Below the pieces are notes generated by a model. It saw nothing but the letters and a program-made list of their open reading frames with translations. It did not search any database and was not told where the DNA came from. Both the position numbers and the translations under genes were made by a program. Source: a virus. Taken from it: 36,083 bases of DNA. The stretch covers positions 1 to 36,083 of IMG/VR virus record IMGVR_UViG_3300009152_000108; one strand, given 5' to 3'. The stretch's first letter is position 1, and each line of letters starts with the position of its first letter. Shown here in pieces: positions 1 through 13,743 of the stretch.

Positions 1-1050
1 CCTATAACAGATTTAAGAGAGCCTGGTTTTGAACTAAGTTGGCTGGCTCAGCAAAGAATTCTCAATAGAAATAAAACATTATCAACTAAAAGAAACCTGC
101 TGGCACAAAACAATGCTATTATTAATGATCCAAAAGCGCCAAAGATTAATCTTGTTCAAGACTCTGATGGAACACTAAACACAAATGCAGTTGCTAATTT
201 TAAATATAATGTAGGAAGTGTTAAAGAATCTTACTTATCCACTAAGTCAAGCTTTTTAAAAGAATTAACTGCTTATAGTAACAGTAATGCACCTAGTGCA
301 GTAACTAATGCTTCTCAATTATGGATAAATGGAACTTCAAATAAAGGCATGATTCAACCTTGGTTAGAAAAAACGTACCAAGAAGCAATTGCTGCGAAGG
401 GGGATTCAGGAGATCTTCCAGGTGGCAATATATCGCTTACACAGCTTATGAATAATGTTTACGCTTTTCAATTTTTATACAATCCAGCGTCTATAGATAT
501 GGTTTATCAAGGTCAACTTGGAGCAAGCATAGATTATCTAGCAAGCGGTAATGACCCGTTTAATGCGCTAGGTGGGCAGAACGTTAACTCTACTATAAGT
601 TTTAACATTCTTATTAATAGAATGCATGATTTTAAATATTATGATAAGGATACTGGTAAAATTGCTAAAGAATATAAAAATTCAAATCTGTATGTTCCAA
701 GACAACCTGAAGAAGATGAACAACTAGAAATATACAGAAAAGGAACAATGTATGATTTAGAGTTTTTATTTAGGGCTGTTTTAAAGCACGGATTCCCATC
801 TTATTTTCATGAAAGAAACTCAAGTGATGGTATAACTTCAGACGTAGGATTTATTATGAGCGGTCCAGTAGAACTTCATTTAGGAACTAGTTTAAGGTAT
901 ATGGGAACTGTTAATCAGATTAACGTTTCTCATGTACTATTTGATGAAAGAATGGTTCCTATATTTACAAATGTTTCATTTGCCTTTGGAAGGTACATTG
1001 ATTCAGCTAAACTTACCATGGATGGTGAAGTAAATCCTAGTGGGCGTTAA
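1..1050 (+). CDS. Baseplate/tail protein, 5' end outside window
   Basis: The frame is open from base 1 to the stop at 1048-1050, so the visible 349 codons are the C-terminal part of a gene that starts upstream. An ATG at 349 exists, but the upstream codons read as ordinary protein and no ribosome site precedes it, so I treat it as internal. A Gln- and Asn-rich linker leads into a compact domain from about residue 150 containing FQFLYNPASIDMVYQG. That phrase recalls the domain that precedes LysM-type baseplate proteins in contractile tails (XkdP-like), which is family knowledge applied by eye. The next genes are clear baseplate genes, so a role where tube and baseplate meet is likely. The exact homologue is not certain. 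Confidence 0.6.
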   Translation, partial: PITDLREPGFELSWLAQQRILNRNKTLSTKRNLLAQNNAIINDPKAPKINLVQDSDGTLNTNAVANFKYNVGSVKESYLSTKSSFLKELTAYSNSNAPSAVTNASQLWINGTSNKGMIQPWLEKTYQEAIAAKGDSGDLPGGNISLTQLMNNVYAFQFLYNPASIDMVYQGQLGASIDYLASGNDPFNALGGQNVNSTISFNILINRMHDFKYYDKDTGKIAKEYKNSNLYVPRQPEEDEQLEIYRKGTMYDLEFLFRAVLKHGFPSYFHERNSSDGITSDVGFIMSGPVELHLGTSLRYMGTVNQINVSHVLFDERMVPIFTNVSFAFGRYIDSAKLTMDGEVNPSGR

Positions 1051-1071
1051 TATAAAAAGGAAAAGTAGTAA

Positions 1072-1347
1072 ATGATTTATACAGATAGTAGATATGCAAC
1101 TGGTCTTATTTCTTACGGAAATGATTCTAGATTAAACCAGTCTAACATTTCTGTTTATAGGAAGTTTCCTTCTGCAAGTCACTCCTTCTTTGCGTATGTA
1201 TGGACTGATTATGACCGTGCTGATCTAGTTGCTTATAAACTTCTTGGGTCTTCTACCCTATGGTGGAAAATTATGGATATAAATCCTGAAATTCTAAATC
1301 CACAAAGCATTGCTCCTGGAACAACAATTAGGGTGCCTAATGCGTAG
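1072..1347 (+). CDS. Baseplate wedge protein, gp53/LysM-like
   Basis: This 91-residue protein starts 21 bases after the previous stop, behind an AAAGGAAAAG ribosome site. The middle (DLVAYKLLGSSTLWWKIMDIN) is the typical signature of T4 gp53-like and LysM-type baseplate proteins: a short helix, a Trp-Trp pair, then a loop naming the 'position'. It ends with PGTTIRVPNA, the usual close of a LysM-like fold. In related phages this protein lies in the baseplate wedge or binds the tail lysozyme region. It overlaps the start of the hub gene by 8 bases, which suggests coupled translation. The family call is good; the precise position in the particle is inferred. Confidence 0.7.
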   Translation: MIYTDSRYATGLISYGNDSRLNQSNISVYRKFPSASHSFFAYVWTDYDRADLVAYKLLGSSTLWWKIMDINPEILNPQSIAPGTTIRVPNA

Positions 1348-2614
1348 CCCTACTCCTTTAAAGCTTAACAAAAGCGCACGTTATCATGTTGAGTTCCCTA
1401 CTATTCCTTCTATAAAAAAAATTCCAAAAGATGTTAAATTAATACAAAAACAAAACAATCATGATATTTTAATTCTTAAATTTTTTAGTTCAAATTCTTT
1501 TTGGTTTGAAAATTTAAAAACAGGTGTTCCTGTAAAATTTTCTTATTCTCAAGGTCACCTATCAAAAGTTTGGTATGGGTATGTTTCGTTTGTTTCTAAC
1601 GTACCTACTACGCCAAAAATAAGACCTATAGAAGTTTACTGCATAGGAAGTTCTTTTGTACTAAAAGAAGGAACAGTAAGAATTTTTACAAATGTAACTA
1701 TTACAGATGTAGTGTCTCAGTTGGCTAAGGAATTTGGGCTGAACTTTATTGGTGAATCGCACTCACGAAAATTTGATCAGTTAATAATAGCCGGGCATTC
1801 TTATTGGGAATGGATAAACGAACATGCCAATAAAATTGGGTATGGGGTATACGTAGAAGGTACTAACTTAATTTTTAGACCTATAGATAGTTTAATAAAC
1901 CAGCTAGTTTCAGAAGCTCCTATTTTAAATTGGTCAAACCCAACTATTTCAGGGTTTACAGATGATCCAAGTAAAACATTAGATTATTTTAAAGTACTAA
2001 ATGGTGAACTTATTGAGGGATCTACAAACTACCGATCTATTAAACACATGGGTGGGGTAGACCCTATAACAGGGTCTACTACAGGCTTTGATAGTAACCC
2101 TAAAGATCTAGGTGAAAAATTACGGTCTAATGTTAGCGATGTTTATTTTTCAGAATTTAGAAGTGATCAGGTAGTTCATAATGATTTAGATTCTAAAACG
2201 GCAGCTGAGGGAGCGGCTCACTTAGCAAGGTTTAACCTACCTGCACATGCAACTGCAAAAGGTGATCCAAGGCTTAAACCTTATAGTATTGTATACATTG
2301 AAAATACAGGCAAATTAACAGATGGGTATTGGGTTGTAAAAGAAGTAACCCATGAGTTTAGTCTTACTGGATTTTACAAAGTAAAGCTAAGTCTTTTAAC
2401 AGACGGTACTGGGACCAATCAAGAGTACTCTTTTAGACAGGCAAAACCTACAGTTACTGGTATTGTTAATTCAGGTCATGTTTTAGAGATTGATGCGCAA
2501 ATATTACAAACAGAGACTACTAAATTACAACAGTCGGAACTTATTATAAGCGAAGCTAACCAGGGATTTAATAGAACCCCTGCTAGGTGGACGACTACAC
2601 TTGGAGGAAATTAA
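1340..2614 (+). CDS. Baseplate hub protein (gpD/gp27/XkdQ-like)
   Basis: I start this 424-residue protein at ATG 1340, which overlaps the previous stop by 8 bases; a TTG 30 bases upstream is in frame but less likely. Its order between the LysM-like gene and the gp25 gene matches XkdQ or phage late control D proteins. These form the ring-shaped hub linking the tail tube to the spike. Features that fit are an early beta-barrel with FSYSQGHLSKVWYGYVSFVS, the middle IIAGHSYWEWINEHANKIGYG (in this fold the mid-domain often carries a W-x-W/Y helix), and a C-terminal region with DGYWVVKEVTHEF typical of hub barrels. The last 45 residues look like a helical, Gln-rich tail. The role follows from synteny and fold signatures, not from catalytic residues. 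Confidence 0.7.
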   Translation: MRSPTPLKLNKSARYHVEFPTIPSIKKIPKDVKLIQKQNNHDILILKFFSSNSFWFENLKTGVPVKFSYSQGHLSKVWYGYVSFVSNVPTTPKIRPIEVYCIGSSFVLKEGTVRIFTNVTITDVVSQLAKEFGLNFIGESHSRKFDQLIIAGHSYWEWINEHANKIGYGVYVEGTNLIFRPIDSLINQLVSEAPILNWSNPTISGFTDDPSKTLDYFKVLNGELIEGSTNYRSIKHMGGVDPITGSTTGFDSNPKDLGEKLRSNVSDVYFSEFRSDQVVHNDLDSKTAAEGAAHLARFNLPAHATAKGDPRLKPYSIVYIENTGKLTDGYWVVKEVTHEFSLTGFYKVKLSLLTDGTGTNQEYSFRQAKPTVTGIVNSGHVLEIDAQILQTETTKLQQSELIISEANQGFNRTPARWTTTLGGN

Positions 2615-2615
2615 C

Positions 2616-3035
2616 ATGATTTTACCAGCTACTTTTACTGAAACTAGCTTATCTTTTCCATTTAAAGTTTCTGCAAATGGAACAATAGCCACTACTGTTG
2701 ACCACAAAAATATTTGGGCAAATAAAGTGCGCTCAGTGCTTAGTACTTCTTTTCAAGAAAGAGTCATGTTTCCACAATTTGGTAATGAATTAACTGAGGT
2801 TTTTTGGAATACTGAGACATTTGCAAAAAGCAGTGTAAATGCATACGTAGCAAGAGCGTTCTCTAATTGGTTACCTACTTTACGTTTAAATGAGGTAATT
2901 GTTTCTGACATAGACACCACAGGACAGCTTACAATTTCAATTTCTTATTTTCTACCAAATGATGAACAAGTTGAGACCTCTATAGGATTTGTAAGAATTT
3001 CAGGAAACCTACCAATTATTCAGGAGACAGCATGA
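2616..3035 (+). CDS. Baseplate wedge subunit, gp25-like (W-like)
   Basis: This is a 139-residue protein. The start is ATG 2616, chosen because a strong GGAGGAAA lies just upstream at 2602-2609; an in-frame start at 2601 sits inside that site. It has the gp25/gpW form: N-terminal beta strands (LSFPFKVSANGTIATT), a central NKVRSVLSTSFQERVMFPQFGNELTEVFW, where R..L.T...ER.M.P.FG is the family core, and strands at the end. The protein is a wedge component that triggers sheath contraction; despite an old 'lysozyme' label it is not enzymatic. It overlaps the following J-like gene by 4 bases (ATGA). Confidence 0.85.
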   Translation: MILPATFTETSLSFPFKVSANGTIATTVDHKNIWANKVRSVLSTSFQERVMFPQFGNELTEVFWNTETFAKSSVNAYVARAFSNWLPTLRLNEVIVSDIDTTGQLTISISYFLPNDEQVETSIGFVRISGNLPIIQETA

Positions 3036-5206
3036 CAGAGGCATCTAGTAATCTACCAATTGCTATTGATTACACTAGTAGAGATTTTTACGCTTTACGT
3101 ACAGACCTTATAGCTAGAGTAAAAGCAAACCTTCCTGCTTGGTCGGGCAATGACCCAGCTGACATTGGAGTTGCTATTATTGAAGCTGTTGCATACATGG
3201 GAGATATTGCAAACTATTATATAGATAGAGTTGCTAATGAATCTTTTTTACAAACCGCTACCCAACGATCAACCTTACTAGGATATGCTAAGAGTAAAGG
3301 GTATTCTGTTTCAGGCTATAAAGCCGCTACAACTACTTTGGTTTTTGGAAATTCAAAAACAAGCAGCCTAACTCTTCCAGCACAAACAGTAGTCTATGTA
3401 GATCTTTCCGTAAATGGAGGAATAAAGAGAGTAAAATTTACTACAGATGAAGCAGTGACTATTCCTGCAAGCACTGCTCTTGGAGATGCAACTGCTGGGT
3501 ATAGTATCTATTCAGTTACTGCAACAGAAGGAATGCCGATTGGTAATGCAGGTGCTGGGTTAACTTTAGCTGAAACAGTAGATGGCATTTCTTATTACCC
3601 TATACGAGTGTCTGATACAACAGGGCAAATTGATCAAACCTATAAACTGGCTGACAATAATGTTATAGATGATTCTTTGCGTGTGTATATAAAATCAGGA
3701 TCTACGTATGTAAAATGGACTAAAGTTTTGGATTTAACTTTATATGGAAAATCAGATAAAGTCTACACAACATTTATTGATGAAAACAACTATATTAATA
3801 TCTCTTTTGGCGATGGTGTATCTGGATTAATTCCTTCATCGTCTAGTACTTTATGGGCGGCTTATAGTGTTGGAGATGGTATTTATGGAAATATGGCAGC
3901 AGGAACAATTCTTTCTACAGGTAGCCCTATTCAATACATTCCTAGTGGAACTCTTTCTGACTACACCCCTTACATAAGTTTAACTAATTCATTTGATTCT
4001 TTAGGCGGAGCTGATCCTGAAAGCAATGATTCTATTAGATACGCTGCTTCGGCTGTTGCTAAGACTTCTTTAAGAGCAGTTACTTTACAGGACTATGAAA
4101 GCATTGCACTAAGAACTTCAAATATTGGTAAAGTAAAAGCGTACTCTTCATCTTCATATTCTTCTGTGACACTTTATGTAGCTCCTAGAAGGCTCTCTAC
4201 TTTACCTAGTGACTACTCTTTTGTAGGATCTGATATATACCCTGGGTATGATCTTTTAAATACATCAATAACAAATGAGATGACTGCTCTTAAATCTGAT
4301 GTAGAAAAGTCATTAGTTGGATTTACTCAAATAGGTGTTACTACAACTGTAACTGAAGTGTTTTATACTCCCGTAAATTTAGCCTATTCGTATATTTTAG
4401 TAGATGGATATACAGATTCTGAAGTTTCAACTAGAATTAAAACCCAATTACTAGAAACTTATTCTTATAATAACTCTAAAATATCAGACTCTATATATTA
4501 TGATGCTATTGTAAAAACAATCGTTTCTGTAGAAGGCGTTGCTTCTGCTAGCGTTACTATTCTTGATAGAAATTCTGGTACTAATAAAACTAATTTAGTT
4601 GGTACTCCTGGAGAAATATTTGTGTTTACTTCTAATAAAATTTCAGGAACAGTGGCTAATAGCTTTAGTCAGAGTGTTCTTGAAGGGCTATGGCTTTTGT
4701 ATCACAGCACTACTATAACTTCTACTAGCTATGCTTTTGCATCAGGTGTTACTACCCTTACAACTACTGCTAACCATGGTTTATCTACTGGTGATAAAGT
4801 ACGTTTAACAGGGTTTGCAAATAATTCTTATAATGCTACCTGGACGGTTGCTTCAGGTTCTGCCACAACGACATTAAAACTAACTACTACTGTTGATCTT
4901 GGAGCAACTGGCACGTTAACTGCTGCTGCTGTTCGTCAGGTAGCCACAGCAACTCCTGTTACTGAGCCTTTTGATTCTGCAGTACGCAGTTATCTATTTG
5001 CCACCAGTGGAGCCTATGGAGTTCTAGCACTGCCCGTATGTAATGATGGTGTAAGCACTATTACATTTGCTGGTGGAACTGTTGCAACAGGTACGCTATC
5101 TGGTCTTAAATCTGTTAATGTTGGTTATAACTATTTCTCATTAGTAGTTACAAACAATAATAGCAATATTAGAACAAACTACGACATAGTTGTAATAAGG
5201 TCGTAG
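3032..5206 (+). CDS. Baseplate J-like protein with extra C-terminal module
   Basis: This 724-residue protein opens with IDYTSRDFYALRTDLIARV and then NDPADIGVAIIEAVAYMGD, the hallmark of the baseplate J/gp6 family. The family forms the wedge arms that surround the hub. A central beta region (about residues 250-440) follows, with FGDGVSGLIPSSSSTLWAAY as another family block. After residue 560 there is an added module with NHGLSTGDKVRLTGF followed by TWTV and Thr-rich strands. This resembles modules in the downstream tail protein and is not a normal part of the J core. The start overlaps the gp25 stop by 4 bases. The J call is strong; the function of the extra domain is unknown. Confidence 0.9.
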   Translation: MTEASSNLPIAIDYTSRDFYALRTDLIARVKANLPAWSGNDPADIGVAIIEAVAYMGDIANYYIDRVANESFLQTATQRSTLLGYAKSKGYSVSGYKAATTTLVFGNSKTSSLTLPAQTVVYVDLSVNGGIKRVKFTTDEAVTIPASTALGDATAGYSIYSVTATEGMPIGNAGAGLTLAETVDGISYYPIRVSDTTGQIDQTYKLADNNVIDDSLRVYIKSGSTYVKWTKVLDLTLYGKSDKVYTTFIDENNYINISFGDGVSGLIPSSSSTLWAAYSVGDGIYGNMAAGTILSTGSPIQYIPSGTLSDYTPYISLTNSFDSLGGADPESNDSIRYAASAVAKTSLRAVTLQDYESIALRTSNIGKVKAYSSSSYSSVTLYVAPRRLSTLPSDYSFVGSDIYPGYDLLNTSITNEMTALKSDVEKSLVGFTQIGVTTTVTEVFYTPVNLAYSYILVDGYTDSEVSTRIKTQLLETYSYNNSKISDSIYYDAIVKTIVSVEGVASASVTILDRNSGTNKTNLVGTPGEIFVFTSNKISGTVANSFSQSVLEGLWLLYHSTTITSTSYAFASGVTTLTTTANHGLSTGDKVRLTGFANNSYNATWTVASGSATTTLKLTTTVDLGATGTLTAAAVRQVATATPVTEPFDSAVRSYLFATSGAYGVLALPVCNDGVSTITFAGGTVATGTLSGLKSVNVGYNYFSLVVTNNNSNIRTNYDIVVIRS

Positions 5207-5209
5207 TAA

Positions 5210-5737
5210 ATGATCCATGATGATTATGGTAATCGTAGGTTTTACGGCATATACAGGGGCACTGTTGTAGACAATAATGATCCTTTAAATCAAGTAAGAT
5301 TGAAAGTAAAAGTTCCACAAATTTTGTTTGATCAAGTAACCGATTGGGCATGGTCGGTTCAGCAGCCTGGTGTAATTAGAAACACTCCTAAAATTGGTGA
5401 TGGAGTATGGGTTTCTTTTGAAGGAGGAGATCCCTCGTATCCTGTTTGGACCGGCTCATTTAAGGCTGCTCCTTATAACATGCAAGCAGGAACTACAACG
5501 GGTGGATCGGTAACAGTTACTTTTGATATACCATTTTCTTCTGGTACTACTCCTATAGTCACTGCTTCAGTACTTTCTACTAATGATAAACCAGAAATAT
5601 TTGTATTAAATAGCGTTACTAATACTGGGTTTACTGGACAAGTCTGGTCATCAAGCGGAACAGTTTCACCTTATAATAACTTTGTTACAGCAACCGGTAG
5701 AACTATTCATTGGACAGCTGTCCAACTAACCCCATAA
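5210..5737 (+). CDS. Baseplate spike protein, OB-fold with lectin-like C-terminus
   Basis: A 175-residue protein that starts 3 bases after the J gene. Residues 1-85 have the gp5/gpV N-terminal OB-fold signature: FYGIYRGTVVDNNDP, then LNQVRLKVKVPQI, then TPKIGDGVWVSFEGGDPSYP. Residues 100-175 do not look like the usual beta-helix spike. The pattern FDIPF, IVTASV, TNTGFTGQVWSS and IHWTAVQ resembles H-type lectin-like domains seen at the ends of phage fibre proteins. Function: the tip that pierces or touches the cell envelope, possibly with sugar binding. The OB-fold call is strong; the lectin-like call is by pattern only. Confidence 0.8.
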   Translation: MIHDDYGNRRFYGIYRGTVVDNNDPLNQVRLKVKVPQILFDQVTDWAWSVQQPGVIRNTPKIGDGVWVSFEGGDPSYPVWTGSFKAAPYNMQAGTTTGGSVTVTFDIPFSSGTTPIVTASVLSTNDKPEIFVLNSVTNTGFTGQVWSSSGTVSPYNNFVTATGRTIHWTAVQLTP

Positions 5738-5786
5738 TCCTTTACAAATTTAACTGTACTTTTTCTATACCCTTTAAGGACTAACA

Positions 5787-8700
5787 ATGGCATCTGTATC
5801 TAAATACAAAAACTCTGCTTTACCAATGACTGGATTAGCGCTGTCTAACTCAACTATTCAGGTTGAGTGGAGTACTCCTTCTACTTATCCTGAAAAAACA
5901 GTTACTTTAACTAGCGGCTCTGGGTCTGGAACTACAATAACAGTTTCTAGTACAACAGATCTTGTAGTAAACCAAAAAGTAGAGGTAGTTAGTGGTACGG
6001 GTACTTTTGTCTTTGGAACTATTGTTACCTCAATTACTAGTTCAACAACATTTACAGTAAGTCAGCCTCCTAGCGTATCTTTAAGTGGAGCTACTATTTA
6101 CGCGTATACTGAACCATACAAGGTTTTACGATTAGTTCGTAATCAGTATGCGTATTCTGAAACTCAGGAAGATGGTCAAATACTTTATGAATTTAATAAC
6201 TCAGCTAATACAGGGTTAGAACCAATAGAAGTTTTTACTGATGGGGTTACTTCTAGTTTAAGTTCTATATCTTTAGTTTCTGGTCAGTATGCGTACTATA
6301 GTGTATGGCTTCTTGTTACTAACACATGGGTTTTGGCAGGAACTTGCACAGTTCTTTTGCCCAAAGATCATGGGTCTTATAATACTGATGGAGACCTTTT
6401 AAAATCTAATCATACTAAAATTATGGAATCTCTTCCTAGATTTTTAACTTCAACATCAAATACTGCTTTTGATGAAATAGACGCTTCATCTGATATTTAC
6501 AAATTTTTTAAAGGAATTTCATTAACTTATGATGAGATTCTTACTTATGCAGATCTTACTATACGTTCATTGCCAGGTAAGTATACTTCTAATAATATGG
6601 TACTAAATGCTTTTAATGATTTAGGAATAAGGGTAACTTCAACATCGCCTACTTTTTATAAAAAAGCTTTAATAGGAAAAATAGAAAGTTTAAAACTTAC
6701 AAAAGGAACTGCAAGTACTTTGGCTAATTTTGTAGAAACTTTTACAGGTTACAATACATCTGTAAGCGATAGTACGCAGCCCTCTAATCCTATAGGGTTA
6801 ACTAACCTTTTACTTACAGCACAAGATAGCAGCTTTCATAAAGGTGGGATTGGTGGCTGGAAAAATGTGAGTGGGACTACTCTTACAGTAGAAGGTGGTA
6901 ACGTTACTTTAACAGGTGTGTATGGATCAGGAACTACTCTTTTAGCAGATGATGTAACTGGACTAGTTGCTGGTCAAACCTTATTTATTGCTAGCGGTAC
7001 AGGTGCTTTTTCCTCTACTACTGCTACTTCTATTTCTAGTATTGATGCTGCATCTAATACGTTTGTAGTTAGCACTGCGCCCACAACTACACTAGTAAAT
7101 GCTACTGTAAGAGCATTATTTTTAGACATTCCAACAGCTGAAGATTACTCTGTAAAATCACCTTATAGACTAAAAGTTACTACTAACGCTACTTCTGGTA
7201 TAAACTACAGACTGGGTCCTACAACTCAAACTACTTCTGTTTATGATTTTCCTAAATATGGAATTCCTATTAGTCCGGGTACTCAATATACTTTTAGTTT
7301 TTATTGTAAAGGCGGATCTTATAACCCTAGTATTCAACCATATATAGTGTGGGGGGATAAATATGGTAACCAAACTGGTACAGATACTGCTACAGCAATA
7401 TCTACTTCATCTTCTTGGGCTAAGTATAGCTACTCTGTTACTTCTTCTGGGTATTACGTAACAGCCACAGACTACACTTTAGGGTCTTCTTCTACGGTAA
7501 TAACTTTACCTGTTGGTCATGGCTTTAATACAACAGCAGGTACAAATAAAATTTGGTTAGAAAGTTTTGCTCTTCCTTTTGTTGGGGGGTACACTATTTC
7601 TGCGTTTACTTCTACAAGTATAACAATACCATTTGGAATAAACCCTGTTACGTTATCTACTGTAAGTAGCTCAGGAAATATATTTACGATTACTAGCGGT
7701 ACTTTAAACGGCGTAACAATTGGTCAAACAATAACTATTTCTTCTGGAACTGGAACTTTAAACGGTACTACAACAGTAACAGGGATTACGGGTGCTAGTA
7801 CATTTACAGTAAGCGCTGTTCCTACTGTTGCTTTAAGTGGGGCTACTATAACCTTTAGTTTCGATAAAAAAGTTACAGACTTTACTGTGTTTAAAGCTAC
7901 TACTGCAGGAGTTAAAGAAGGTGTTGCTCAGTATGCTTTACTTGGGTTTAAACAAACAAGCGCAAGTGCTGTGGCTAATTACTATCTTGATTCTATTCAA
8001 TTTAATGCCGGAGCAGTTAGTAACTTTATTGAGGCTAGAAGCGTGGATATCTACGTAGATCCTAATAAGTATAACTATTTAATTGATCCTACTTTTAACG
8101 CTTCTTCTTCTGGATGGTCTTCTTCTGGAACGTTTACTGCATTAGAGTATACCACTCTAACGGGACTGCCATACTCTAGCACAAGTAAAATGGGTAAAGT
8201 AGTTACAGGATCTTCTACTACAACTTCTTTTAACCCGGATTTAAAAACTGCAGTTCCTACTCCTATTACAATTAACAATACTTACTATACTTTTTCTATA
8301 TACATTAAAGGTGATGCAGAGTATACTTTAAATCTTGCATTGACAGATGGAGTAAACACAAGCACACCTACTGTTATGGCTGTAACTACAGATTGGAAAC
8401 GGTTTTCAACTACTCTTTATGTAACTTCTACTGCCACTGGACTAACCCCATATATCTACGGAACTCGCACTTCTGCCGCTACTTTTAGAGTAGACGATGC
8501 ACAATTAGAAGAAGGTCAAACTCCATCAGATTATTTTGATGGCGGGTTTTACACCCAAGGTGCAAGATGGACAGGAGCTGCGGATGCGTCTAGCTCATAC
8601 TTATACATAAATAAAGAACAAAAACTTTCTGAACTATCAGTTCATCTTGATGATTGGGTTCCTATAAACACTGTTTGGATGCTTCGGAGCCTTACAGGAA

Positions 8701-8801
8701 TTGAAGCTATTGGAATTCCTTCAGCAACTAGTACAGACTCCACTGCCCCATACACTAGTAGCGGCGGTGGCGGGTCTAGAGGCACTACAGTGTTTGCATA
8801 G
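5787..8801 (+). CDS. Large tail protein: gpI-like region, repeated beta modules, carbohydrate-binding-like domains
   Basis: This 1004-residue protein starts behind AAGGA. Residues 200-320 resemble the gpI-type tail protein: DLLKSNHTKIMESLPRFL and later YADLTIRSLPGKY. Three similar beta modules of about 70 residues lie near 39-107, 373-443 and 620-692, each ending like TFTVSxxPxxxLSGATI. Another HGF-type module lies near 558-615. Two jelly-roll carbohydrate-binding-like domains can be seen (near 345-745, interrupted by modules, and 760-905), the second closing with QLEEGQTPSDYFDGG and ARWTGAADASSSYLY. It is the best candidate for the host-binding protein or its adaptor. The C-terminus is Gly-rich (SSGGGGSRGTT). 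No enzymatic motif is seen. Confidence 0.7.
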   Translation: MASVSKYKNSALPMTGLALSNSTIQVEWSTPSTYPEKTVTLTSGSGSGTTITVSSTTDLVVNQKVEVVSGTGTFVFGTIVTSITSSTTFTVSQPPSVSLSGATIYAYTEPYKVLRLVRNQYAYSETQEDGQILYEFNNSANTGLEPIEVFTDGVTSSLSSISLVSGQYAYYSVWLLVTNTWVLAGTCTVLLPKDHGSYNTDGDLLKSNHTKIMESLPRFLTSTSNTAFDEIDASSDIYKFFKGISLTYDEILTYADLTIRSLPGKYTSNNMVLNAFNDLGIRVTSTSPTFYKKALIGKIESLKLTKGTASTLANFVETFTGYNTSVSDSTQPSNPIGLTNLLLTAQDSSFHKGGIGGWKNVSGTTLTVEGGNVTLTGVYGSGTTLLADDVTGLVAGQTLFIASGTGAFSSTTATSISSIDAASNTFVVSTAPTTTLVNATVRALFLDIPTAEDYSVKSPYRLKVTTNATSGINYRLGPTTQTTSVYDFPKYGIPISPGTQYTFSFYCKGGSYNPSIQPYIVWGDKYGNQTGTDTATAISTSSSWAKYSYSVTSSGYYVTATDYTLGSSSTVITLPVGHGFNTTAGTNKIWLESFALPFVGGYTISAFTSTSITIPFGINPVTLSTVSSSGNIFTITSGTLNGVTIGQTITISSGTGTLNGTTTVTGITGASTFTVSAVPTVALSGATITFSFDKKVTDFTVFKATTAGVKEGVAQYALLGFKQTSASAVANYYLDSIQFNAGAVSNFIEARSVDIYVDPNKYNYLIDPTFNASSSGWSSSGTFTALEYTTLTGLPYSSTSKMGKVVTGSSTTTSFNPDLKTAVPTPITINNTYYTFSIYIKGDAEYTLNLALTDGVNTSTPTVMAVTTDWKRFSTTLYVTSTATGLTPYIYGTRTSAATFRVDDAQLEEGQTPSDYFDGGFYTQGARWTGAADASSSYLYINKEQKLSELSVHLDDWVPINTVWMLRSLTGIEAIGIPSATSTDSTAPYTSSGGGGSRGTTVFA

Positions 8802-8810
8802 TGCTATACT
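8802..8810 (+). promoter_or_regulatory. Possible extended -10 promoter
   Basis: TGCTATACT matches an extended -10 element (TG-N-TATAAT with one mismatch). It sits at the junction of the tail and replication modules, 7 bases before the membrane-protein start. No convincing -35 lies at the right distance. The same TGCTATA core occurs in the stronger promoter at 16180-16188. If used, the message would have almost no leader for the gene at 8818, so it may serve the genes from 9098. Confidence 0.3.
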
Positions 8811-8817
8811 ATTATTT

Positions 8818-9084
8818 ATGGATACTTTAATTTATATACTTATTTCAGGAATGGCAGTAGCCTATCTTGTTGAATTAATCACGGCACTTACAGATCGGTT
8901 TATTTCGTCTTGGATTTTAAAAGCGATTTTGCCTTTTCCACTTAGTGTGCTAAGCTTATACGTTCTAGGTATATTTGGATTACCAATAATAATTTATGGG
9001 TTAGCAGCGTCATGCATAGCCCTTGTTGTGGTATTCTTTGTAAACCGCCCAGTAACAAATCAGGTGATACCTGTACGTCGCTAA
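8818..9084 (+). CDS. Small membrane protein, holin-like by topology
   Basis: An 88-residue, strongly hydrophobic protein. The first helix spans about residues 3-22 and one long or two short helices span about 38-78, ending with a short basic tail (VIPVRR). I use ATG 8818 because the first helix begins there; no clear ribosome site precedes it, and ATG 8851 after CAGGA would cut the first helix. An in-frame start at 8701 would overlap the tail gene by 100 bases and is unlikely. Size, topology and position right after the tail genes are compatible with a holin, but no lysin gene is next to it. The function is not established. Confidence 0.6.
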   Translation: MDTLIYILISGMAVAYLVELITALTDRFISSWILKAILPFPLSVLSLYVLGIFGLPIIIYGLAASCIALVVVFFVNRPVTNQVIPVRR

Positions 9085-9097
9085 AATATGGAGCATA

Positions 9098-10045
9098 ATG
9101 AACAAGGAAGAGCAATTCCGTCGTCTGTCTTTAGGACCTTCGGAACTTAAAGTACTATTAACCCTAGAATACTTTGCAGACAGCAAAGGGGTCGCTGACC
9201 CTACAATGAACATCTTAGAAGAAGTTACCGGCTATAGCCGTATGCAGATATCACGCTCGGTCAAAACTTTGATCAAAGAAAACTACATTGAAGTTAAGCG
9301 CTTAAAGCGTCTTGATGGTTTTAACCATCGTAATGTATACCAACTGCTTAGTAACACTAATGTTACAGTCACTTCCGCGTCGCAGAGCCATAGTAACGCC
9401 GATGTTACATCAATTACTAATAAAGCTTTAGTTATTAAGATAGATAAAGCATTAGATACTACGTATCTAATGGGAGAAGAGGAAAAAGTGGTTAATCGTT
9501 GGAAAGACGACGATGATGATCTTGCAGGTGTGGGATTGATCGAAGAACCTAAGACCGTACAAACCAAGAAAGCTTCTAAGCGCGAGCCTAAAACTAGGCA
9601 CAGTCGTCCTATCGAAGAGTGGACTCCAGCCGATATGGCTACAGAGTTTTCGTACAGGGTCTACCAAGCACTGCCTGGCATACCTGGCGTAGTCAACACC
9701 CGTAACCTGTGGGGTGCGCTAGCTAAAAATCGTAAGCAGTTTGGCGTAACTGCCGTGCTTGAGTACGAAGTTCTAGAGAAATACTTCGCTGATAATCGCA
9801 ACCTGACCTCGTTAAAACAGGCTCCAGCCTACGCACACGCTAAGTTTTTAACTTTTTTAACAAACAACATTCAGGCAGTAGCCTCAGACCTTGGTGTTGA
9901 AGATCTGCCAGAAGACATTCCGGTAATTGAGCCAAGGAACAACTACGTTTACGCAACCGATGGTCGCAGGTTTGACAATTCAATGCCCGGTAGGTTAGCA
10001 TTAAAGCAATACGAAAAAAGGAAGGAACAAGCAAATGACGTATGA
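9098..10045 (+). CDS. Winged-helix replication initiator-like protein
   Basis: A 315-residue protein with TATGGAGC upstream. Residues 10-85 form a winged helix: LGPSELKVLLTLEYFADSKG, then NILEEVTGYSRMQISRSVKTL as recognition helices, then a basic wing (EVKRLKRLDGF). An acidic and low-complexity linker (about 90-185) joins it to a helical C-terminal domain with WTPADMATEFSYRVYQ and NLWGALAKNRKQFGV. This two-domain plan is like phage replisome organisers (O-like or DnaD-like). Its neighbour is a DnaC-like loader, with an 11-base overlap, so it probably marks the origin and recruits the loader. Inverted repeats lie in the linker-coding DNA. The initiator role is inferred from plan and position. 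Confidence 0.6.
   Translation: MNKEEQFRRLSLGPSELKVLLTLEYFADSKGVADPTMNILEEVTGYSRMQISRSVKTLIKENYIEVKRLKRLDGFNHRNVYQLLSNTNVTVTSASQSHSNADVTSITNKALVIKIDKALDTTYLMGEEEKVVNRWKDDDDDLAGVGLIEEPKTVQTKKASKREPKTRHSRPIEEWTPADMATEFSYRVYQALPGIPGVVNTRNLWGALAKNRKQFGVTAVLEYEVLEKYFADNRNLTSLKQAPAYAHAKFLTFLTNNIQAVASDLGVEDLPEDIPVIEPRNNYVYATDGRRFDNSMPGRLALKQYEKRKEQANDV
9351..9470 (+). repeat. Cluster of inverted repeats within the initiator gene; candidate origin
   Basis: Two copies of GTAAC-N6-GTTAC lie at 9351-9366 and 9393-9408, 42 bases apart, both preceded by TAG(A) and followed by A. Just after them are the palindrome TAAAGCTTTA (9421-9430) and a larger one, TTAGATAC-TAC-GTATCTAA, at 9452-9470, in AT-rich DNA. 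The region encodes the low-complexity linker of the initiator, where protein constraint is weak. In lambdoid phages the origin iterons lie within the initiator gene in the same way. The repeats are seen directly; origin function is inference. Confidence 0.4.
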
Positions 10046-10760
10046 TGTGTCTAAACTAAGTGGAGATAAGCGCCACACAATCGCAGTAAACTCAAACATT
10101 CCTCGTAGGTTTATAGGAATGGAACCAAATGATATCAAAGATATGATGGGAGCTTTTTCAAATGAAATTGAAGATTGGATTACTAATGTTCTTGAAGGCA
10201 ATGTTATTAAACAACTTGGCGGTATCGGAGTTACTGGCGTTGGGCTGTTATTTGACGGTGGTCCTGGTCTAGGTAAAACTACTCACGCAGTAGTTACACT
10301 TATGGAATTGATCCGTAGGCTACCTGAAGATCCTAAGCAGGTTTCTCGCATATTTGGAACTGGTAACACCGAGGTTGGGCGTAGCTTTAGGTCTATATAT
10401 TATTTGACTTTTCCTGAGTTTGTTGTTAGGAAGAAAGCCGTGATGGAAGCTGACAACGAAACTAAGCGTGAACTGTATGAAGAGATGCAGGGCTTTCACG
10501 GTCGCGCAAAAGATGACAACTTAAACGTACGCATCCTAGTTCTAGATGATCTTGGAAAAGAGTATGGATCTAAGTATGTAGACGCTTCCTTTGACGAGAT
10601 CCTTCGTGCTCGTTATGACAAGGGGCTACCTACAATCATTACTACAAACGTGCTACGTGAAAAGTGGGCTGCTCAGTATGGCGAAGCAATGGGTTCATTT
10701 GCCTATGAAGCATTTACCCGCATTCAGCTAGGTGCTAAAGATCTTAGGAAGAACGGATAA
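10035..10760 (+). CDS. DnaC-like AAA+ helicase loader
   Basis: A 241-residue ATPase. Walker A is GGPGLGKTT at residues 75-83 and Walker B is ILVLDDLGKE at 167-176, followed by the DEILRARYDKGLPTIITTN sensor block at about 184-204, as in DnaC and IstB-type loaders. The N-terminus (about 1-65) is a short helical extension for binding a partner. It would load the DnaB-like helicase encoded at 11486 onto origin DNA using ATP. The start overlaps the initiator gene by 11 bases and the stop overlaps the next ATG by one. The product call is firm; the partner is inferred from gene order. Confidence 0.85.
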   Translation: MTYDVSKLSGDKRHTIAVNSNIPRRFIGMEPNDIKDMMGAFSNEIEDWITNVLEGNVIKQLGGIGVTGVGLLFDGGPGLGKTTHAVVTLMELIRRLPEDPKQVSRIFGTGNTEVGRSFRSIYYLTFPEFVVRKKAVMEADNETKRELYEEMQGFHGRAKDDNLNVRILVLDDLGKEYGSKYVDASFDEILRARYDKGLPTIITTNVLREKWAAQYGEAMGSFAYEAFTRIQLGAKDLRKNG

Positions 10761-11050
10761 TGGATATTAAATGGAGGACTATCCAGTTTTTTATATCCCC
10801 TAATGGAGTGTGTGAAGTTCAATCAGACGACACCTCTACTAAAAAACTCCGTTGCACTTGCAGGGACTTTGCAATCTTAGCTCGTTGTAAGCACGTAAAA
10901 TTTGTTAGGGACCGGATTGGTCAAACAGGGATTTTTACTGTAAAACTTGCTGAAGATACCGACGATGAAAACGTCGTAGCAGCAATGCACGACCCAGAAA
11001 AGTTTCGTAGGTTTTTAATACAACACGCAAAGATAGAGGTAATTGAATGA
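10760..11050 (+). CDS. Small SWIM zinc-finger protein
   Basis: A 96-residue protein. C32-x-C34 with C43-x-H45 (CTCRDFAILARCKH) fits the SWIM zinc-finger pattern CxC...CxH, a fold that binds DNA or protein. The rest is a short beta-rich lead and an acidic helical tail ending VIE. It sits between the helicase loader and the helicase, with 1- and 4-base overlaps, so a role in replication or in regulating it is plausible. No catalytic domain is present, unlike larger SWIM proteins. Confidence 0.65.
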   Translation: MDIKWRTIQFFISPNGVCEVQSDDTSTKKLRCTCRDFAILARCKHVKFVRDRIGQTGIFTVKLAEDTDDENVVAAMHDPEKFRRFLIQHAKIEVIE

Positions 11051-11485: not shown

Positions 11486-12736
11486 ATGGCATTTGATAAC
11501 GAGTATCGTTTAGTAAGTAAAGTAATACGTGATCGTCAGATCATACCTGTAATTGAAAAGGGTATAAAAGATGATTGGATTGTAGATGACGATCTACGTC
11601 GCGTATGGAAATTTGTTCGTGAGCACTACGTAAAGTATAGGGAAGTACCTACAGCTACAACTGTACGGGACAACTTTCCTGCATTTAAAGTGCTTGATGT
11701 GCAAGACAGTATTGACTACCTCATTGACCAGATGATTTCTTTTCGTCGTCGCACCCTGACTAAAAATGGTATTGAGGACTCTCTTGCCAAGATGGTTGTA
11801 AATGACCACGAAGGTGCATTAAATGAAATGAGCAGGACAGTCGCTATTGTTAGTGAACAGGGTAACGTAGGTACCACTCACGTAGACTTAGCAAAAGATC
11901 CAGCTGCACGTTTTACAGAGTACGAGAATCTACAGAATTCTGTTTTACTTGGCATACCTACTGGTTTTGCAAAGATTGATGAAGCTACTGCTGGCTTACA
12001 AGGCGGTCAACTAATTACAGTTATTGCTCCGCCTAAAACAGGTAAGTCACAGATTGCTTTGCAGATGGCTGTTAATGTACACAAGGTTGGAAAAATCCCT
12101 ATGTTCCAATCATTTGAGATGAATAACCATGAGCAGTCTCAGCGTCACGATGCTATTCGTGCTAATTTATCAGCAAAGAACTTACGTGTTGGTAAACTAA
12201 ACACACAAGAAGAAGAACGCTACATCGATATGCTAGAAGAAATGAAGACATCACATCCCTTCCATCTGGTTGACGCAGTGAATGGTTTGACCATCGATAC
12301 TCTTGTTGCCAAAGCTGAACAACTAAAGCCAGATATCCTATTTGTAGATGGTGTTTATCTTATGCTTGATCAGATTAGTGGCGACTCTAACACTCCACAG
12401 GCTTTAACAAACATTACTCGTGGACTTAAGCGTGTTGCACAGGTTCTTGATATCCCTGTAGTTATTACAACCCAGACTTTGCTTTGGAAAATGAAAGGTG
12501 GAAAAGTTTCTGCCGATTCTATTGGTTACTCATCCTCATTCTTCCAAGACTCTGATGTTATTCTAGGTCTTGATCAAATTGACAATGATGAAAAAAGGCG
12601 TACTCTACGTGTTGTTCAAGCACGTAACTGTGGTCCTTCAGACGCAACTATTACTTGGGACTGGGATACCGGTTGTTTTCACGATGAATCAAAAGACTCT
12701 AGTTGTGACTTCTGCTCACCTTGGAGTGCTGTTTAA
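11486..12736 (+). CDS. dnaB: DnaB-like replicative DNA helicase
   Basis: A 416-residue protein with AGAAGGAA upstream. Residues 1-120 form the DnaB N-terminal helical domain. The RecA-like motor has LGIPTGFAKIDEATAGLQGG (155-174), Walker A APPKTGKS (181-188), Walker B with D288 in DILFVDG, and the ITTQ sensor region. It would unwind the fork as a hexamer, loaded by the DnaC-like protein. The C-terminus carries an unusual CDFC pair (C407, C410) before the end, not part of DnaB, perhaps for metal or partner binding. The stop overlaps the primase start by one base. Confidence 0.9.
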   Translation: MAFDNEYRLVSKVIRDRQIIPVIEKGIKDDWIVDDDLRRVWKFVREHYVKYREVPTATTVRDNFPAFKVLDVQDSIDYLIDQMISFRRRTLTKNGIEDSLAKMVVNDHEGALNEMSRTVAIVSEQGNVGTTHVDLAKDPAARFTEYENLQNSVLLGIPTGFAKIDEATAGLQGGQLITVIAPPKTGKSQIALQMAVNVHKVGKIPMFQSFEMNNHEQSQRHDAIRANLSAKNLRVGKLNTQEEERYIDMLEEMKTSHPFHLVDAVNGLTIDTLVAKAEQLKPDILFVDGVYLMLDQISGDSNTPQALTNITRGLKRVAQVLDIPVVITTQTLLWKMKGGKVSADSIGYSSSFFQDSDVILGLDQIDNDEKRRTLRVVQARNCGPSDATITWDWDTGCFHDESKDSSCDFCSPWSAV

Positions 12737-13743
12737 TGTTCAATGTTGAAGAGACTCTAAATGTCATAGGCATAGATTATACTGTGCGCAACGAAGAAGC
12801 CAACGCTTTATGCCCTATGCATGAGCGCATGACTGGTCGTCCAGATGGTAACCCTTCTTGGTGGATTAATTTAGAAACAGGTGCACACATATGTTTTTCG
12901 TGTCACTATAAAGGCAATCTGCTACAGCTAGTTTGTGACATCAATGAATTTTACATAAAGCTGCCAGACGCCTCGTATGGGTACGATTATGCAGCAGGCA
13001 AGTCTTGGTTGGCAAATGCTTCTGATACGCCCGTAGAGAGGCTCCTAGAGCATTTAAAGGCTATTCCAAGGTTCATTCAACCCATACCAAAACCTATTCC
13101 AATGTCAGAGGCTAGGCTAGCTGTTTTTGTTGATCCACCCCAAGAGGAATTAGACAAGCGGGGTATTTCTTTACATGATGCTCAGGATCTAGGAATCCTA
13201 TGGGACGCCAATAAAAAGAACTGGATCTTGCCTTTACGCCACCCAGGCACAAATGCGCTGATGGGCTGGCAAGAAAAGGGGACAGTTTCTCGTACTTTTA
13301 TGAATCGCCCTGCAGGCATTGCAAAGTCCACGACTTTATTCGGCATACAAACACTCAAAGATAATGAACCCGTTATTGTTGTAGAGTCCCCTCTAGATGT
13401 AGCACATATTTTGTCATCTGGATGGCGTTTCCCAGTTGTTGCAGTTTGCGGGTCCTCAATGAGCGAAGATCAGGTAAAATTATTAAGGAACTCAGATACA
13501 GTAATTGCCGCATTTGACAACCCAAACATTGATAAAGCAGGTAAAAAAGCGTGTGACGAACTTCAGGTTTTAGCTCGCAAATACGGTCTTATGGTTTATT
13601 ATTTTAACTATGGGAACAGTGCCTCAAAAGACCCAGGTGATTTAAATGCCGAAGAAATACTCTGGGGCATAGAGCACGCTAAACCAGGAATATACGGAGA
13701 ATCAGCATATGTTTATAGGAACACTGAAACCATATCAAGTTGA
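12736..13743 (+). CDS. dnaG: DnaG-like DNA primase
   Basis: A 335-residue protein; the start is ATG 12736 in a TAATG junction with the helicase, as the TTG at 12721 is less likely. A zinc-binding CHC2-type domain has C26, H29, C53 and C56 (CPMH and CFSC). A Toprim region has VVESPLD with E217 and D221, and later FDNPNID with D261 and D266, which match the acidic metal-binding residues. It would make RNA primers for PolA on the lagging strand. It is shorter than host DnaG (about 600 residues) and lacks the helicase-binding C-terminal domain. Its last 35 bases overlap the next gene. Confidence 0.85.
   Translation: MFNVEETLNVIGIDYTVRNEEANALCPMHERMTGRPDGNPSWWINLETGAHICFSCHYKGNLLQLVCDINEFYIKLPDASYGYDYAAGKSWLANASDTPVERLLEHLKAIPRFIQPIPKPIPMSEARLAVFVDPPQEELDKRGISLHDAQDLGILWDANKKNWILPLRHPGTNALMGWQEKGTVSRTFMNRPAGIAKSTTLFGIQTLKDNEPVIVVESPLDVAHILSSGWRFPVVAVCGSSMSEDQVKLLRNSDTVIAAFDNPNIDKAGKKACDELQVLARKYGLMVYYFNYGNSASKDPGDLNAEEILWGIEHAKPGIYGESAYVYRNTETISS

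Follow-up and report, generated by a model that had tools for sequence, protein, structure and literature searches.

The window, as we call the 36,083 bases of the virus record analysed here (G000), probably covers about one-third of a genome, because relatives of its initiator gene sit on contigs of up to ~95 kb and six of the eight contigs of 90–95 kb examined carry end repeats of 123–127 nt. An initiator gene of 315 codons occupies positions 9098–10045 of the plus strand, and the genes that follow on the same strand encode a DnaC-like helicase loader adjoining it downstream (10035–10760; phrog_50, E 1.9e-20), a DnaB-like replicative helicase (11486–12736; PF03796, E 4.9e-28; phrog_19, E 9e-53) and a DNA primase (12721–13743; phrog_47, E 1.5e-32; Toprim_2, E 8.5e-9). 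A small ORF between the loader and helicase genes (10760–11050) gave a weak SWIM zinc-finger match below the cut-off (E 0.021). Every one of the 11 matches of the loader comes from Streptomyces, Mycobacterium or Gordonia phages, and Streptomyces phages, among many others, give the best matches of the polymerase. Inside the initiator gene lie two dyads, an AT-rich segment and a hairpin.

As judged from its ORF, its PHROG matches and an AlphaFold model built from the sequences of 50 relatives, the initiator combines a winged helix, a disordered linker and a helical C-terminal domain. In the model, the winged helix covers residues 1–87 and includes a recognition helix at residues 48–60 (9239–9277, plus strand), residues 88–144 have a pLDDT below 50, and a helical domain follows (9587–10042, plus strand), which in three relatives (L095, L282 and L283) stands alone, with neither winged helix nor hairpin. 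The PHROG matches, to replication initiation or O-like initiators (PHROG 270, 678 and 391), are weak (best phrog_270, E 7.5e-8). Among Pfam families, DnaD_N and HTH_36 match below their curated cut-offs, the DnaD N-terminal domain PF21984 with 23.4 bits against a gathering score of 27, and the C-terminal domain has no Pfam match at E 0.1 or better. Foldseek searches with the model returned winged-helix proteins as top matches, with the DnaD N-domain at rank 2 and MarR-family regulators among the matches, none of them reaching E 0.001. By its weak family matches and the rank of the DnaD fold, the protein resembles the DnaD/O-like winged-helix phage initiators, from which it differs in its sub-threshold Pfam matches and its unmatched C-terminal domain.

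Two GTAAC-N6-GTTAC repeats 42 bases apart, reported in the initial annotation, are present as described and are the sole copies in the window, compared with 0.04 expected from dinucleotide shuffles, none of which had two. They form the dyads GTAACA-CTAA-TGTTAC (dyad 1, 9351–9366), which is conserved in relatives, and GTAACG-CCGA-TGTTAC (dyad 2, 9393–9408), 42 bp or 4 helical turns from dyad 1, within a direct repeat of 19 nt with 84% identity (9349–9367 and 9391–9409), and both are proposed as initiator sites. The same annotation had assigned this DNA to the linker of a winged-helix protein, in agreement with the AlphaFold model, in which the dyads fall in the DNA for the predicted disordered linker (pLDDT below 50, residues 88–144).

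Relatives of the initiator were gathered in six scans of viral contigs, one by protein and five by alignment. Four of the alignment scans contributed the best 80 of 368, 356, 92 and 92 relatives, and the 117 distinct listed genes to which the relatives collapse, equivalent to 61 clusters at 80% identity, are thus part of the family. All of them come from metagenome assemblies, and the family is uncultivated. Among isolated phages, a tblastn search with the initiator of the window gave a single weak match over 26% of the protein, lambda not being among the matches, and searches with the family members L019, L138 and L160 found no relatives. Plasmids searched with P0001 yielded no initiator relatives, and among genome contigs 38 stretches fitted a pattern, none of which was confirmed as an initiator relative.

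The initial annotation had named loss or randomisation of the repeats in close relatives as grounds for abandoning the idea of an origin; instead, dyads are retained, and their half-site differs by lineage, following the recognition helix. In the close relatives L003–L011 the dyad arms are invariant while the spacer codons vary, and L009 has a third copy. The 93-kb contig with L007 again contains two GTAAC-N6-GTTAC sites only, and the 60-kb contig with L009 contains three at the locus and one elsewhere. Other clades keep the geometry of two arms of 5–6 within 16 bp with a half-site that differs by lineage, and across 59 of the 61 cluster representatives, in which half-sites were displayed, these include GTAAC, GTTTC, GTGTC, CCCAC/TCCAC, GCCTC, CCCTC, TGGAC, TGGTA, GCCAA and more, the dyad copies within one genome matching each other. 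An automatic filter found two or more 16-bp dyads of matching sequence shortly past the wing in 26 of 55 full-length cluster representatives versus 157 of 5500 codon shuffles, and no repeated dyad in the other 29; six of the 61 representatives, shorter than 240 aa and including the split loci, were dropped from the codon-shuffle tests, and the filter found none in the four split-locus representatives. Where dyads recur there are mostly two, spaced 24–54 bp apart with peaks at 33, 42 and 54 (n = 31), and the spacings are helically phased (R 0.81 at 10.5 bp), a value that none of 5000 random sets of multiples of three reached.

The half-site varies together with the recognition helix. In a chosen subset of 31 sequences with half-sites assigned by hand, the recognition-helix tetrapeptide SRTT or GRTT accompanies GTTTC, SRSS/SRST accompanies GTGTC, SRMQ accompanies GTAAC, SEES/STES accompanies CCCAC/TCCAC and GREA accompanies GCCTC. 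For 28 representatives, likewise chosen and assigned by hand, the Mantel correlation between half-site and recognition helix was r 0.57, and the partial correlation given overall identity was r 0.457, with 0 of 5000 permutations as high for each, although homologues share ancestry and neither these permutation figures nor the shuffle figures are exact probabilities. A scan of 297 four-residue windows placed the best tracking of the half-site outside the linker at residues 47–51, where the recognition helix begins, the linker being left aside because it encodes the dyads and so correlates trivially. This co-variation with residues 47–51 points to the initiator's own winged helix as the putative reader of the dyads.

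Beside the dyads lies an AT-rich segment (9409–9449), the proposed unwinding region, which contains an inverted repeat (9418–9437, TAATAA-N8-TTATTA) and the first of two 18-nt repeats (9420–9437 and 9444–9461). The stretch 9409–9472 is 76.6% AT versus 56.5% for the gene, and in 45 of 45 clusters the AT content of the 50 nt preceding the hairpin exceeds that of the gene. A TCAACA(GC) box occurs within 130 nt before the hairpin, TCAACA being present in 37 of 45 clusters versus 1.7 expected, and also in the gap of all five split loci; the window has the variant TCAATTACT. After the hairpin, a second inverted repeat, often GC-rich, was found in 42 of 45 clusters (arms of at least 5) versus 15.9% of random stretches, has lineage-dependent arms and loops (for example, L012:3266–3281 and L042:3364–3387), and is absent in the clade of the window. 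The linkers of L025, L027, L033, L079 and L244 have repeated CTACTA/ACTACTAA runs between the dyads and the C-terminal domain, which we take to be reminiscent of DnaA-trio unwinding elements.

The second of the two palindromes noted in the initial annotation, both of which are present (9418–9437 and 9450–9472), ends two bases past the limit drawn there and was mentioned only in passing, yet proved more informative than any other part of the locus. It is a perfect 10-3-10 inverted repeat, CATTAGATAC-TAC-GTATCTAATG, whose minus strand presents a C-GTA-G loop of the GNA type, and both of its strands fold as DNA (z -8.6 and -12.1). Of the 117 listed genes, 76 contain a C-TNC-G triloop hairpin with a stem of at least 9 bp, with the loops TTC (39), TAC (35), TGC (1) and TCC (1), so that all four middle bases occur in a loop that reads C-GNA-G on the opposite strand. 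These genes contain 78 triloop hairpins with stems of at least 9 bp; 76 of them have the C-TNC-G loop, with the closing pair and the G and A of N4-type hairpins, and the two exceptions are second hairpins with other loops in L143 and L070. An RNA UNCG tetraloop, which needs a G after the loop stretch, was rejected, the base there being T in 44 of 45 clusters and C in one.

Triloop stems of at least 9 bp with any loop were present in 41 of the 55 representatives versus 24 of 5500 codon shuffles (0.4%), and 581 kb of flanking DNA contained three triloop hairpins of at least 9 bp, none with a C-TNC-G loop. The 45 hairpin-bearing clusters have 20 different 9-bp arms, a diversity that is an independent measure, whereas pairing is not, because loci were counted by a perfect stem; the arms covary, with shape rather than sequence apparently preserved across distant relatives. 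All seven contigs of 91–95 kb that encode the winged helix have exactly one such hairpin, within the initiator or, in G013, between its parts. A search with two hairpin sequences found 45 contigs, 40 of which carry the hairpin in or at an initiator relative, and the remaining five have the hairpin sequence in three unrelated contexts, two of which look like terminators with T-runs. These are the same hairpin sequences in unrelated phages (L335, L336/L341 and L368/L369), followed by T-runs in L335 and L336.

The hairpin is not universal: 41 of the 117 listed genes and 16 of the 61 clusters, fragments included, lack any triloop hairpin with a stem of 9 bp or more, which amounts to a quarter to a third of the sample. 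One group (L025, L027, L028, L033 and L244) has only C-TNC-G stems of 6–7 bp, further downstream, and in the stretch searched, L146 and its kin, L216 and its kin, L041, L046, L078, L080, L086, L122 and L160 have no C-TNC-G stem above 3–4 bp. Among better-known phages, the fetched stretches of lambda, MW202692 and Streptomyces phage LuckySocke contain no triloop hairpin of at least 7 bp, and those of Gordonia phage Skog and Mycobacterium phage Phrappuccino contain such hairpins only with other loops.

Five relatives (L065, L077, L081, L082 and L087) have a split initiator, in which the winged-helix ORF ends and is separated by a gap from a C-terminal ORF that begins with ATG at the usual VN-W motif. 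The gap between the ORFs holds the hairpin, with stems of 11–14 bp, together with the box ATCAACAGC. In four of the five, a stop lies between the hairpin and the C-terminal frame, and in L087 the hairpin lies in the open C-terminal frame, yet upstream of the ATG and in another phase. By this comparison, the hairpin appears to be under selection at the nucleic-acid level, also where it stands outside both reading frames. In L095, L282 and L283, which have the C-terminal ORF alone and of which the initiator search recovers that part only, no C-TNC-G stem above 4 bp was found near this ORF, and the 90.7-kb contig of L095 has no C-TNC-G hairpin of at least 9 bp anywhere. Contig G017 is among related phages that keep just the C-terminal part of the initiator, lacking the winged helix and the hairpin.

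GC skew, proposed in the initial annotation as a check, gave no support for an origin. In the window, GC and AT skew change near 9 kb (1–9000 versus 9000–36083), a change unmatched in eight relatives' contigs of 90–95 kb, where GC skew is weak or follows gene orientation without a switch at the element; the 93-kb relative G002 has no switch there. Skew was rejected as an origin marker, as it is weak or tracks the coding strand in these eight contigs.

The hairpins of the N4 virion RNA polymerase promoters have stems of 5–7 bp. They serve as promoters, whereas the hairpin described here lies in a replication initiator gene and has stems mostly of 9–10 bp and up to 14. Both share the C-G closing pair and the G and A of the loop, which, according to PMC4496689, are needed for extrusion of the N4 hairpins, shown at sub-physiological superhelical density, while the loop of the partner strand is reactive. 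The title of Yoshizawa 1997 (cited in PMC6479982) reports extraordinarily stable DNA minihairpins for GNA loops. The DNA energy model applied here does not discriminate between the strands, the plus strand being favoured by 0.2–0.4 kcal/mol, so the GNA argument depends on the conserved letters together with the N4 and GNA literature. With C-GNA-G on the minus strand, we therefore favour a DNA role on that strand and regard an RNA role as its chief competitor. We give a little less than even weight to the hairpin functioning as an extruded DNA structure.

The initial annotation had likened the locus to lambda, and the analogy fits by layout. According to its sequence record, the lambda origin in gene O also comprises iterons with dyad symmetry in the initiator gene, followed by AT-rich DNA and, after that, a palindrome. 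Lambda differs in having four iterons 20–24 bp apart, against mostly two dyads 24–54 bp apart here, and an imperfect palindrome (12 of 14 pairs, with a 4-nt loop TGGC) in place of a C-GNA-G triloop. SPP1 oriL in gene 38, as described in PMC6316719, likewise has direct repeats bound by the SPP1 initiator and an AT-rich unwinding element inside the initiator gene, along with a loader and a DnaB-type helicase; this likeness of layout is drawn from that description (PMC6316719) and excludes the palindrome. Repeated sites inside the initiator gene, AT-rich DNA next to these sites, and a helicase loader and DnaB-type helicase nearby, as in theta origins of the lambda/SPP1 kind, were all found at the candidate origin.

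The principal competing explanation takes the hairpin for an RNA element in the initiator mRNA that tunes translation or decay, with the dyads alone serving as origin or operator. The hairpin does lie in the mRNA sense in fused and split loci alike, with the same sequence present in the mRNA, and in split loci it stands upstream of the C-terminal ORF, followed by the second, GC-rich inverted repeat before the ATG. Fused genes, however, have no start codon there for regulation, no T-tract follows the hairpin in the window, and it is in the complement of the mRNA that the invariant loop letters, with all four middle bases seen, obey the GNA rule; we regard an RNA role as unlikely. The dyads might also serve the winged-helix protein as an operator for repressing or autoregulating the operon it belongs to, with no origin at the locus. 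The position of the dyads, ~250 bp inside the gene rather than upstream, speaks against such a site, as do the AT-rich stretch and conserved hairpin that follow them, the loader, helicase and primase genes downstream and the replication-initiator names of the matching PHROGs; even so, palindromic sites of a MarR/DnaD-like winged helix are typical of repressors, MarR-family regulators are among the fold matches, and the half-site co-varies with the recognition helix. We judge it quite improbable that the locus is an operator only.

Selection on the protein would offer a different account, in which SNxxVT-like peptide repeats in the linker are maintained and the DNA dyads are a by-product. In the clade of the window, the dyads do fall in a single frame and yield one and the same peptide repeat, but protein repeats leave the palindromic symmetry unexplained, codons change in the spacers and stay fixed in the arms, and split loci, which no longer encode the linker, retain both the hairpin and the ATCAACAGC box. 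Codon shuffles, which retain the peptide yet mostly lose the dyads and the hairpin, led us to reject both this account, which we hold to be very improbable, and chance. As for an assembly artefact, every relative comes from metagenome assemblies, but many independent contigs agree and the counts lie one to two orders of magnitude above those of codon shuffles, leaving chance or artefact a negligible probability.

Taking these observations together, we favour a replication origin, and the proposal of the initial annotation that a candidate origin lies in the initiator gene is supported by the persisting dyads and by the tracking between half-site and recognition helix. Dyad conservation, recognition-helix co-variation, helical phasing and AT-richness are features read from the comparison of relatives; initiator binding, opening, hairpin extrusion, helicase loading and origin activity are inferred. 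The region is, very probably, an origin with the dyads as initiator sites, and it is probable that 9351–9472 is the core of a phage replication origin inside the initiator gene, complete with a GNA-loop hairpin.

In the mechanism we propose, the winged helix of the initiator would bind the 16-bp dyads, set on one helix face, and the AT-rich stretch beside them would open. The C-GNA-G loop on the minus strand would give the hairpin at 9450–9472 an unusually stable fold, extrudable under negative supercoiling, and the extruded hairpin may hold the region open or mark where the loader or primase engages. The DnaC-like loader encoded by the neighbouring gene would place the DnaB-like helicase on the exposed strand. 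More tentatively, and with clear reserve, we speculate that such loci represent a class of origin whose opening has as an essential part a GNA-loop DNA hairpin of the N4 kind, which extrudes on one strand under supercoiling as a structured landmark for helicase loading or priming, while the winged helix and dyads co-evolve as a swappable specificity module. Among the matches listed in a search of literature titles, whose coverage mostly lies outside subscription papers, none links a GNA hairpin with the theta origin of a phage.

Lambda and SPP1 belong to the handful of studied phages with a known origin in the initiator gene, and the candidate arrangement described here is documented across dozens of lineages, which makes the parts of an origin readable from evolution. 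The series of half-sites and recognition helices would provide a natural specificity table for a winged-helix initiator, testable by swapping. The hairpin, kept by structure both within and outside coding sequence, suggests that DNA shape helps these origins to open.
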